Below are positions 30,360-32,641 of a stretch of 33,889 bases of DNA, in pieces. The DNA is from Candidatus Poribacteria bacterium (GTDB lineage: Bacteria; Poribacteria; WGA-4E; WGA-3G): positions 1 to 33,889 of the forward strand of contig JAAXHO010000133.1 of NCBI GenBank assembly GCA_012270795.1, in the 5' to 3' direction. Positions within the stretch are counted from its first letter, which is position 1, and each line of letters opens with the position of its first letter. The notes beneath the pieces were generated by a model that saw nothing but the letters and a program-made list of their open reading frames with translations, searched no databases and was not told the DNA's origin. The position numbers and the translations under genes are program-made.

Positions 30360-32003
30360 TTATTGTTCTTCAGAGATTTCAGCATCTTTTGCGAAGTCAC
30401 TGAGGACAGTAGGAGTAGCAGTATCAAATCCGATAAAGTCTATCATGCCAGCATCGTTTGGGTCTGCGATAGAAAAGTTATTTGCCACCATCCCTACCAC
30501 TGCACACTTTGCGGGTCTTCCCATTTCATCCCGATACATATCTAATGCAGTTTTAGGGTGAATTTCACCGTGCCACGTTTCGTTGTCGGTGTAAATCACG
30601 AACACATCTACTTCAAGTTCGTTTTTCATTGCATACTGCATTGGTAACGAGCAATCAGTTTTACCTTGCGGAAGTCCAGATACAGCTTCAACCGCACTTG
30701 CTAACCTGTCAGTAGCAGTAATGGGTACACGCACAAAATTTTCCGAAAAGCCGTAGACGTGATAATGTGGTTCGGTGCGTGCAGTAACCATAGCCATTGC
30801 TGCGGAGGCATTTCGTGGCGTAAGACCTTGGCAACCAGCGACCATTCCAGATGCCATAGAACTGGAAACATCAAGTGCCAAGAAAGTGTTCTTATGGCTC
30901 GGTTCAATGTTATCAAATGCCATATAAAAGGCAGAGTCCAACGCGTCAATAATCTGTGGTACTGGTTCCCATGATAAACTTCCTCTCATACCACTACCAG
31001 AACGATATGTAGTCAACGCCATAAGAATCTGGATGGGGTGAATGAGCGATTTTTTAATTGCATCTGCGTTGAGTCTGTTAAGAACCGTCTGAATTTCAGG
31101 AGCGAAAGGTTTTAACAAACCAACCTGGGTCATTTTTCCAAGATTACGTACTGTTGCCATGACAGGCATGTTTTGTAACAACGCAGCCCAGACCTCAACA
31201 TCGTCTTTCCATTGATTCGGCACCATTTCATGAGTGAATTGATGGGTTTCAATGATTTCAATTACATCCGGACTTTTTTTAGCAAGTTTTAGTTCTTCAT
31301 AAGCAGCAAGCAATTCAGGAAAATCATCTGTCGCGTCGTAAACAGTTGCTATCTTTTCACCTTCCTCTACGCCGCGATGCACAATGCGTTTCCCTGTATC
31401 AAGACCTTTGATCCAGCGATATACACCTTTGTTCTCACCGTAGTGGCACTTTGCAAGGACATCAGCATGACTCCACTTGTTGCGTGTCTGGTATTTCAGC
31501 ACTTGAAACGCTAATGAGTCAGTGCCTTTTGAACGGTACCATTCTCCGATTAATCTTCGGACAGAACGTCCCCATCCGCGCATTCCATCAAGAAACGAAA
31601 CAAATGTGAAAAGGTGTGTTCCAATACGTGCCACGTCACAGAAAACTTCTTGAACCTTCTGTTTAGTGGCTTTATTTCCATGAGTGAATGCAAGAGTCAA
31701 TGCATATAATGCGGGATCGTTCTTAGGGGCGCGACCGGAGACTGATATCTCACGTATTTTTTCAACAACTTGTACCCCATCCTCTGCGATGCATTTTAGT
31801 ACAGAATCTACATTAACCTTTGTCAGATCCTGTTCTGCGGCATAATAGGAACCCCCTTCGGTACCCAGAAGAAGGAACCTATCTAAGTTTGTCCAGATAG
31901 AGACGGGATAGACATAACCACCAGCAGTATTTTCTACCTGCTTTTCGTCTAAAGGTTGTCGTTGGTGTGGATGCAAAGGGGCATATTTTCGCAAATAACT
32001 CAT
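30360..32003 (-). CDS. rsr: Ro60 orthologue (TROVE and von Willebrand A domains)
   Basis: 547 residues from the ATG at 32003, which has GGGTGA at 32013-32008 with a 4-nt spacer; a TTG at 32015 is the alternative. The N-terminal TROVE HEAT-like ring begins TAGGYVYPVSIWTNLDRFLL and LGTEGGSYYAAEQDLTKVNV, as in bacterial Ro60 (Rsr); it would bind Y RNA and the ends of misfolded RNA. The C-terminal vWA domain keeps a full MIDAS: FLALDVSSSMASGM (DxSxS), GKTDCSLP (Thr) and VIYTDNETW (Asp). In Deinococcus, Rsr works with Y RNA and PNPase in RNA decay. Immediately upstream lie two Y-RNA-like structures (32025-32217), so the expected partners are adjacent. It ends convergently with the 29501-30331 gene. 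Confidence 0.95.
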   Translation of the reverse strand: MSYLRKYAPLHPHQRQPLDEKQVENTAGGYVYPVSIWTNLDRFLLLGTEGGSYYAAEQDLTKVNVDSVLKCIAEDGVQVVEKIREISVSGRAPKNDPALYALTLAFTHGNKATKQKVQEVFCDVARIGTHLFTFVSFLDGMRGWGRSVRRLIGEWYRSKGTDSLAFQVLKYQTRNKWSHADVLAKCHYGENKGVYRWIKGLDTGKRIVHRGVEEGEKIATVYDATDDFPELLAAYEELKLAKKSPDVIEIIETHQFTHEMVPNQWKDDVEVWAALLQNMPVMATVRNLGKMTQVGLLKPFAPEIQTVLNRLNADAIKKSLIHPIQILMALTTYRSGSGMRGSLSWEPVPQIIDALDSAFYMAFDNIEPSHKNTFLALDVSSSMASGMVAGCQGLTPRNASAAMAMVTARTEPHYHVYGFSENFVRVPITATDRLASAVEAVSGLPQGKTDCSLPMQYAMKNELEVDVFVIYTDNETWHGEIHPKTALDMYRDEMGRPAKCAVVGMVANNFSIADPNDAGMIDFIGFDTATPTVLSDFAKDAEISEEQ

Positions 32004-32010
32004 GGAATCA

Positions 32011-32025
32011 CCCAATTAATATGGG
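32011..32025 (-). promoter_or_regulatory. Small hairpin over the rsr ribosome binding site
   Basis: CCCA (32025-32022) can pair with TGGG (32014-32011) around TATTAAT, covering part of the GGGTGA Shine-Dalgarno of rsr. It shares one base with the closing stem of the Y RNA just upstream, so the two cannot both form fully. Confidence 0.3.
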
Positions 32026-32086
32026 GCGGGCAAGGTGTGTATTACACAAGAATCATTGTTAAGATAACGCAATACTTCGGCCCGCC
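32025..32086 (-). ncRNA. Y RNA (short-loop type) upstream of rsr
   Basis: Minus-strand stem with the layout of animal and bacterial Y RNAs. Outer stem GGCGGGC (32086-32080) pairs with GCCCGCC (32031-32025), 7 bp perfect. Then a 2-nt 5' bulge CG; AAG (32077-32075) pairs with CTT (32034-32032); a 3' bulge CACAC; TATTGC (32074-32069) pairs with GTAATA (32045-32040); then GTTATC, as in the conserved GGUCCGAAG...GUUAUC strand of Y RNAs. The loop holds a small ACAA/TTGT hairpin. It may be a separate RNA processed from the leader or part of the rsr 5' untranslated region, since no terminator separates it from the start codon 22 nt on. Confidence 0.8.
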
Positions 32087-32092
32087 AAAGAA

Positions 32093-32217
32093 GACTCTGG
32101 ATAAAAATCAGAATACATCTACTCTACCGCTGAGTTACCGTGGGTTTTACATTACATTCCGCCCTCAGGCAGGAGTCGAACCTGCGACCTGATAACGCAT
32201 TCACACGACCCAGAGTC
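32093..32217 (-). ncRNA. yrlA: YrlA-type Y RNA with a circularly permuted tRNA-like domain
   Basis: Minus strand. Outer stem GACTCTGG (32217-32210) / CCAGAGTC (32100-32093); inner stem GAATGC (32202-32197) / GTATTC (32116-32111); bulge GTT; ATC (32193-32191) / GAT (32119-32117). Then tRNA parts in permuted order: 5-nt variable loop AGGTC (32190-32186); T arm GCAGG-TTCGACT-CCTGC (32185-32169); acceptor 3' strand CTGAGGG (32168-32162); 17-nt cap; acceptor 5' strand CCCACGG (32144-32138; pairs with one A-A mismatch and one G-U); U8-A9 as TA (32137-32136); D arm ACTC-AGCGGTA-GAGT (32135-32121); position 26 A. The Ro60 stem replaces the anticodon loop. This matches the known bacterial YrlA family, RNAs encoded near Ro60 with a tRNA-like domain. 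Confidence 0.9.
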
Positions 32218-32295: not shown

Positions 32296-32325
32296 ATTAT
32301 ACAACAGTTTTCTATACTTTGTCAA
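32296..32325 (-). promoter_or_regulatory. Consensus sigma70 promoter for the Y RNA/rsr transcript
   Basis: TTGACA (32325-32320) and TATAAT (32301-32296), both perfect consensus hexamers, with an 18-nt spacer. Transcription should begin near 32290. No other promoter is evident before rsr. Confidence 0.8.
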
Positions 32326-32343: not shown

Positions 32344-32560
32344 CAGAGGCATTTAATTGTTGATTAAGCGCAAATTCTAACATAAGTTTCTTAAAGGTAG
32401 GAGCGACCTCCCGATAAGTTTCTTAAGGTAGGAGCGACCTCCTGGTCGCGACCAAAGGTCGCTCCTACAGAAGATAGGGGAATCGGGGTTTCTAACCCCG
32501 CTTTGAGATACACAGCAACAGAAATCGGGGTTAGAAATCCCGCCTACTATTTATGAGATA
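32344..32560. repeat. Intergenic repeat cluster
   Basis: Starts with CAGAGGCATTTAATTGTTG (32344-32362) and continues with sequence homologous to the reverse complement of about 23100-23180, then GTAGGAGCGACC...GGTCGCTCCTAC units (about 32397-32468) and an AATCGGGGTTTCTAACCCCG / CGGGGTTAGAAATCCCG pair (about 32481-32545). No gene is present. Confidence 0.6.
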
Positions 32561-32586
32561 GGTTGTATCTGGAAGAAAAAGAAATA

Positions 32587-32618
32587 TCTGCGGACAGATG
32601 CTAAGATCTGTCCGCAGA
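32587..32618 (-). terminator. Intrinsic terminator of the S55-like gene
   Basis: A perfect 13-bp inverted repeat, TCTGCGGACAGAT / ATCTGTCCGCAGA with a 6-nt loop. Read on the minus strand it is followed by a T-rich run (ATATTTCTTTTTCTTC). It lies 24 nt after the stop codon at 32642. Confidence 0.75.
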
Positions 32619-32641
32619 CATGTGAATATGAATTGGAATTT

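Follow-up and report, generated by a model that had tools for sequence, protein, structure and literature searches.

The window, the whole stretch of 33,889 nucleotides that we analysed, carries on its minus strand a gene for the bacterial Ro60 protein (rsr), preceded by two structured RNA elements, a promoter and a terminator-like hairpin:

30360-32003, minus strand: rsr (bacterial Ro60), with matches to PF05731 (TROVE, 2.4e-33) and PF25045 (vWA_Ro60, 2.5e-62)
32025-32086, minus strand: putative YrlB-like Y RNA hairpin without a tRNA-like domain, between the YrlA RNA and the rsr ribosome-binding site (fold z -3.67)
32093-32217, minus strand: YrlA-type Y RNA, whole structure
32296-32325, minus strand: sigma-70-type promoter TTGACA-N18-TATAAT, matching the consensus at 12 of 12 positions
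32584-32621, minus strand: terminator-like hairpin upstream of the promoter

The TROVE and vWA_Ro60 domains confirm the rsr neighbour recognized in the initial annotation. This gene likely starts with the ATG at 32003 rather than the TTG at 32015. For most of its length the encoded Rsr can be aligned to both vertebrate Ro60 and D. radiodurans Rsr. It retains K, R and H where Xenopus Ro60 has K170, R174 and H187, residues with a role in Y RNA binding. The relatives found for this protein come from Candidatus Poribacteria assemblies (78-94% identity), in agreement with the lineage suspected earlier. As a side observation, the scores against vertebrate Ro60 (417 and 404 bits) are higher than that against D. 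radiodurans Rsr (386 bits).

The larger RNA element consists of the following parts, listed in 5' to 3' direction of the RNA:

32210-32217, minus strand: outer stem, 5' strand GACTCTGG, putative Ro60-binding stem, pairing with 32093-32100
32196-32202, minus strand: inner stem, 5' strand GAATGCG, pairing with 32111-32117
32186-32190, minus strand: equivalent of the tRNA variable loop (44-48), AGGTC
32169-32185, minus strand: T arm, GCAGG-TTCGACT-CCTGC
32162-32168, minus strand: acceptor strand equivalent to tRNA 66-72, CTGAGGG
32149-32157, minus strand: predicted acceptor-tip mini-helix, ATGTAATGT (RUG-UAA-UGY)
32138-32144, minus strand: acceptor strand equivalent to tRNA 1-7, CCCACGG
32136-32137, minus strand: U8-A9 (TA), just before the D arm
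32121-32135, minus strand: D arm, ACTC-AGCGGTA-GAGT
32111-32117, minus strand: inner stem, 3' strand TGTATTC
32093-32100, minus strand: outer stem, 3' strand CCAGAGTC

In tRNA numbering these parts appear in the permuted order that had been read in the initial annotation (44-48, T arm, 66-72, 17-nt linker, 1-7, U8-A9, D arm). U8, A14, G18-G19, A21, C48 and TTCxAxT are retained as landmarks of a tRNA core. The lower stem is built from the 5' and 3' ends of the RNA with an internal loop: GTCGTGT separates the outer and inner 5' strands, TGATTTTTAT the inner and outer 3' strands, and TTATC and AGA connect the inner stem to AGGTC and the D arm, respectively. The tRNA core thus sits on two stems, an outer one of 8 bp and an inner one of 6-7 bp, and the span ends exactly where the outer stem ends. 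These coordinates fit the earlier description of 8-bp and 6-bp stems in place of the anticodon loop, with the addition that the inner stem of the window RNA contains one G.U besides its 6 bp. The acceptor stem of this RNA forms six of seven pairs, with one A.A mismatch.

The YrlB-like hairpin is absent from the initial annotation and new here. It reads GGCGGGC-CGAA-GTATTGC...GTAATAC-ACACCTT-GCCCGCC (32086-32025), and an Rfam search of the window matched no family to it. Its 5' strand shares GGGYCG...GCGTTATC with that of the YrlA RNA. A regular-expression search, complemented in several genomes by reading by eye, located such hairpins in 13 of the 14 rsr-bearing genomes of the genus (12 intact, degenerate in G036, absent from G031). 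Among 18 aligned copies from these 13 genomes, four pairs show double changes, and the number of covarying cells (11, versus 4.7 in shuffled alignments) was reached by 0 of 500 shuffles. By position and form, we infer that this hairpin is a YrlB-like Y RNA which may bind Ro60.

Conservation beside rsr and transcription of the locus

The Rfam model of YrlA (RF02553) matches 32093-32217 on the minus strand over its full length with 39.3 bits (E 2.1e-5 for the whole window against 4227 families), which supports the kinship with YrlA proposed earlier. The Rfam gathering cut-off of 69 bits is not reached; this threshold is a convention of the database and does not describe a biological property. 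Since the YrlA matches that we examined beside phage Ro-like genes (28-52 bits) all fall short of 69 as well, the Rfam model appears to be narrow. A covariance model built from relatives in the genus, an approach already suggested with the initial annotation, gives the rsr-linked loci 48-150 bits and every other match at most 37 bits in a survey of 85 genomes of the phylum. The weak YrlA matches that we inspected in the window's own genome (C137, C156, C197) are neighbouring tRNA pairs.

Within the genus of the window, rsr occurs in 14 genomes, and the YrlA RNA lies just upstream of it in the same 14 of 14; in the four genus genomes without rsr the model returns weak, noise-level matches only (E 0.002-0.005). 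A fifteenth rsr, 44% identical, was found in a genome of another poribacterial family (G009), with a YrlA RNA immediately downstream (48.4 bits). One of these genes is broken, that of G036, which has a frameshift and ATA in place of ATG; apparent stops in rsr of G042 and G033 fall outside the aligned coding stretch and were dismissed. We conclude that the RNA is a genuine YrlA-type bacterial Y RNA, a known class that is new in the poribacterial lineage. Among the articles that could be searched, we found none on Ro60 or TruB in Poribacteria. The locus adds Poribacteria to the lineages with tRNA-mimicking Y RNAs, and all helices show covariation (see below).

The YrlA RNAs of Salmonella, mycobacteria and phages share with this RNA the order of elements, the rsr neighbour and intact T and D loops. 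Whereas Salmonella YrlA lies downstream of rsr, the window RNA lies upstream. The rsr-yrlBA-rtcBA operon of Salmonella likewise contains a second RNA gene, YrlB, beside YrlA and rsr; here the order is YrlA-YrlB-rsr, the second element is a hairpin without a tRNA-like domain that resembles YrlB by position and form, and no rtc genes are adjacent.

From the position of the promoter we place the transcription start about 70 nt upstream of the YrlA RNA, so that processing would be needed to release it. TTGACA...TATAAT-like elements precede YrlA in seven relatives (G038, G034, G032, G042, G043, G046, G031), and in G039, G040, G033 and G043 a -10 box lies about 8 nt upstream of the RNA. As the terminator-like hairpin precedes the promoter, a separate transcription unit may begin after 32584-32621. 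YrlA, the YrlB-like hairpin and rsr would probably be transcribed from this one sigma-70-type promoter. Between promoter and terminator-like hairpin, positions 32384-32545 contain clustered inverted-repeat elements (GTAGGAGCGACCTCC / GGTCGCTCCTAC and similar); similar-looking inverted repeats near rsr in G034 and G043 suggest a dispersed repeat family.

This arrangement could also describe an RNA that acts mainly in cis, as a leader of the rsr mRNA through which Rsr, by binding the YrlA and YrlB-like stems, controls its own synthesis. The promoter stands upstream of both elements, and in the window we found no terminator that would part them from rsr. The YrlB-like hairpin leaves about 11 nt to the rsr ribosome-binding site, and in the genus YrlA (14/14) and the hairpin (13/14) are found upstream of rsr. 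However, the YrlA RNA of G009 lies downstream of rsr, a promoter box stands immediately before the YrlA 5' end in several relatives, as for stand-alone RNAs, and G031 has no YrlB-like hairpin. We therefore regard a mainly cis-acting leader as unlikely. A leader role as such is compatible with the explanation of YrlA as a Y RNA and does not exclude it: the short distance from the hairpin to the ribosome-binding site makes autoregulation by Rsr possible, and its position directly before the rsr start makes this idea testable.

Covariation and the permuted tRNA core

The minimum-free-energy fold of the window RNA alone misses the T and acceptor arms (z -1.4), and those of the relatives G038 and G039 recover both (z -4.1 and -3.7). 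Because the single-sequence fold of the window RNA is ambiguous, the evidence for structure is comparative. Six relatives (G033, G039, G040, G041, G043, G046) contain a second YrlA RNA, with a second YrlB-like hairpin alongside. In the tRNA-like domains of copy 1 alone, double changes occur in 6 of 17 pairs, and the covariation score was reached by 0 of 500 shuffles. For the whole RNA, the number is 10 of 32 pairs before, and 14 of 30 after inclusion of the second copies (48 covarying cells versus 17.7 shuffled, 0/500). Shuffling leaves relatedness in place, and sliding the pairing partners is therefore the better control; in the alignment with second copies, sliding abolishes the signal. G041 was left out of alignment A2 because MAFFT misplaced its inner stem, and it entered alignment A5 by way of hand-parsed arms. 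The initial annotation had named a lack of covariation at loci next to rsr as evidence against its proposal; on this side, compensatory changes were found in the stems it had listed, and the permuted fold is supported.

Both helices of the lower stem differ between the copies by double changes. The outer stem changes from CTCTGG/CCAGAG in copy 1 to CTCCGG/CCGGAG in copy 2 (U-A to C-G), and the inner stem from GAATGCG/TGTATTC to GAGTTTG/CGGACTC. In the acceptor arm, compensatory changes affect 5 of 8 pairs in the copy-1 domains and 6 of 6 pairs once copy 2 is added. The T arm, with 5 of 5 pairs formed in every tRNA-like domain, shows a single compensatory change: in G038 and in most RNAs of copy 2, A-U replaces G-C. 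At pair 10-25 of the D stem the window itself has A-U for G-C. Otherwise, T and D stems are nearly invariant and carry little information by themselves.

The loop that closes the acceptor stem is indeed 17 nt long, as had been stated, but it is not a plain loop. This linker has the form xNNN-R-UG-UAA-UG-Y-NNNx, and its R and Y change together (A-U in six sequences, G-C in six, no exceptions); RNAalifold independently predicts the same pair. These two observations suggest an acceptor arm of 7-8 bp followed by a 3x3 internal loop and a tip helix, which is predicted to comprise at most three pairs, two being invariant wobbles, capped by a UAA loop. In the Rfam consensus, by contrast, 5-6 bp are closed by a short loop. 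The covarying mini-helix, as deduced from aligned sequences, was not part of the initial annotation and is new here. On the other hand, the earlier claim that so complete an acceptor stem is new does not hold. Permuted tRNA-like domains beside Ro-like genes of Streptomyces and Microbacterium phages have acceptor stems of 8-9 bp, and that beside rsr in G009 has 7 bp, so that stem length alone is no novelty. The permuted tRNA architecture of YrlA has itself been published as structure PDB 6CU1, to which two articles refer (PMC11472068, PMC8394870).

Permuted tRNA genes of the algal and archaeal type also place the 3' half before the 5' half. From such a transcript, processing on the acceptor side and ligation at the anticodon would produce a tRNA active in translation, and this reading shares with the window RNA the order of T half and D half and the linker between the acceptor ends; in addition, the genome encodes an RtcB ligase. 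Yet D arm and variable loop are not separated by an anticodon arm, the linker, a conserved hairpin, has no CCA, a conserved Y stem is present, and ARAGORN calls no tRNA in the window. A permuted tRNA gene would also leave the adjacency to rsr and the joint presence with it unexplained, as well as the YrlB-like hairpin alongside, which has a similar 5' strand and no tRNA part. Without anticodon arm or linker CCA, we rejected this highly improbable explanation. Even less credit is due to remnants of two adjacent tRNA genes (a 3' half, then the next 5' half) that only seem permuted, an artefact to which the weak YrlA matches of tandem tRNA arrays elsewhere in the genome (C137, C156, C197) might point, but which we rejected because the two acceptor strands were found to covary with each other, no tRNA is called in the window, flanking anticodon arms are absent, the flanks form a conserved paired stem, and the genus-model score is far above all other matches.

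Apparent TruB loss and the proposed role of the tRNA-like domain

The best explanation, in which we have high confidence, is a YrlA-type Y RNA that is probably co-transcribed with the YrlB-like hairpin and rsr, with a lower stem that would bind Rsr and a tRNA-like domain that may serve a partner such as PNPase. Known YrlA RNAs bind Rsr with their basal stem, and their tRNA-like domain acts as a tether for PNPase and as a substrate of DusA and TruB (PMC8394870). In D. radiodurans, Rsr and Y RNA help PNPase to degrade structured RNA (PMC7790460, PMC4726728). The poribacterial genome shares with this system (RYPER) that it encodes Rsr with a putative Y RNA partner, and PNPase. The genome also encodes Dus and RtcB, the latter on another contig than rsr.

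The initial annotation had suggested that tRNA-modifying enzymes may recognize the RNA. For dihydrouridine, a Dus gene is present; for pseudouridine 55 the idea is unlikely to hold. Whole-genome searches with TIGR00431 and PF01509 found no TruB in the window's genome, in 18 genomes of the genus or in any of the 59 genomes of the family, five of which are single-contig, although a divergent enzyme could escape these profiles. The same enzyme was found in 24 of 26 genomes of the phylum outside this family and in all 14 control genomes. From these searches, the family as a whole appears to have lost TruB, the tRNA pseudouridine-55 synthase. A host family without detectable TruB and a score below the Rfam cut-off are further differences of the window RNA from the known YrlA RNAs. 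With TruB undetectable across the family, TruB-made pseudouridine 55 is unlikely even though the T loop is intact. Conversely, since the T loop is intact where no TruB is found, modification by TruB is probably not what maintains it, and TruB is an unlikely partner of the RNA in this lineage. A family in which the T loop is intact and no TruB can be found provides a natural test of what tRNA mimicry serves.

By analogy with the characterized systems, the Y RNA is probably a cofactor of Rsr that presents its tRNA-like domain to a partner such as PNPase. The lower stem would bind Rsr, as suggested by its position, by strict co-occurrence and by the conserved Y-RNA-binding residues of the protein. 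The upper part would form the tRNA core, in which, judging from covariation, a tip hairpin joins the acceptor ends and the Rsr-binding stem replaces the anticodon arm. As in D. radiodurans and Salmonella, the RNA may cover the outer surface of the Rsr ring, and the tRNA-like domain would be offered to its partner, most likely PNPase, so as to steer the degradation of structured or damaged RNA.

Duplicated, chimeric and tandem copies

Where the domain scanner measured the acceptor arm of the second YrlA copies, it has 12-14 bp. The relative G038 has an Rsr that is 94% identical to that of the window, and nearly identical Y stems; at L008:2803-2924 (plus strand) this genome has a chimeric YrlA RNA that joins copy-1 stems to a copy-2-type tRNA-like domain with a shortened acceptor arm. 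The duplicated copies and the placement of a copy-2 domain on copy-1 stems are new here. Copies that have been duplicated and, it appears, recombined argue for a modular architecture in which an effector domain is mounted on an Rsr-binding stem. A broader scenario, which we offer tentatively, would be that in the TruB-less family the tRNA-like domain is selected for a partner other than TruB, that YrlA-YrlB cassettes duplicate, their acceptor arms diverge (7-8 bp plus tip helix versus 12-14 bp) and their domains swap Rsr-binding stems, as in G038, and that the YrlB-like hairpin also serves as an Rsr-sensing rsr leader.

Another variant, in G036 (L023:1408-1603, minus strand), has two tandem tRNA-like domains on one Y stem. 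Folding of this tandem permits two beads or, alternatively, a single long acceptor rod that carries tRNA cores at both ends, and the junction of its first D half with its second T half (D1-T2) scores 45.7 bits with the Rfam tRNA model, as a tRNA without anticodon arm. It may be a product of decay, since rsr is broken and the YrlB-like hairpin degenerate in this genome.

Two further RNAs outside Poribacteria were observed beside Ro-like genes. Upstream of a Ro-like gene in Rhodococcus phage Trina, a permuted tRNA-like domain (L057:2827-2880) has CCA as its acceptor linker, and overlaps the end of a stretch annotated as a 'tRNA-OTHER' pseudogene (2646-2854). On a plasmid of Picosynechococcus sp. 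PCC 73109, an apparently unpermuted tRNA-like RNA (L056:2699-2809) lies upstream of a TROVE gene. Its 7-bp acceptor stem, D arm and T arm follow one another as in an ordinary tRNA, and a Y-RNA-like stem (GGGTCG...TTATC) stands where the anticodon arm would be. The minimum-free-energy fold agrees with this layout, and the RNA looks like the circular permutant of YrlA. Similar pieces lie before and after this RNA (L056:2560-2680 and 2831-2957).
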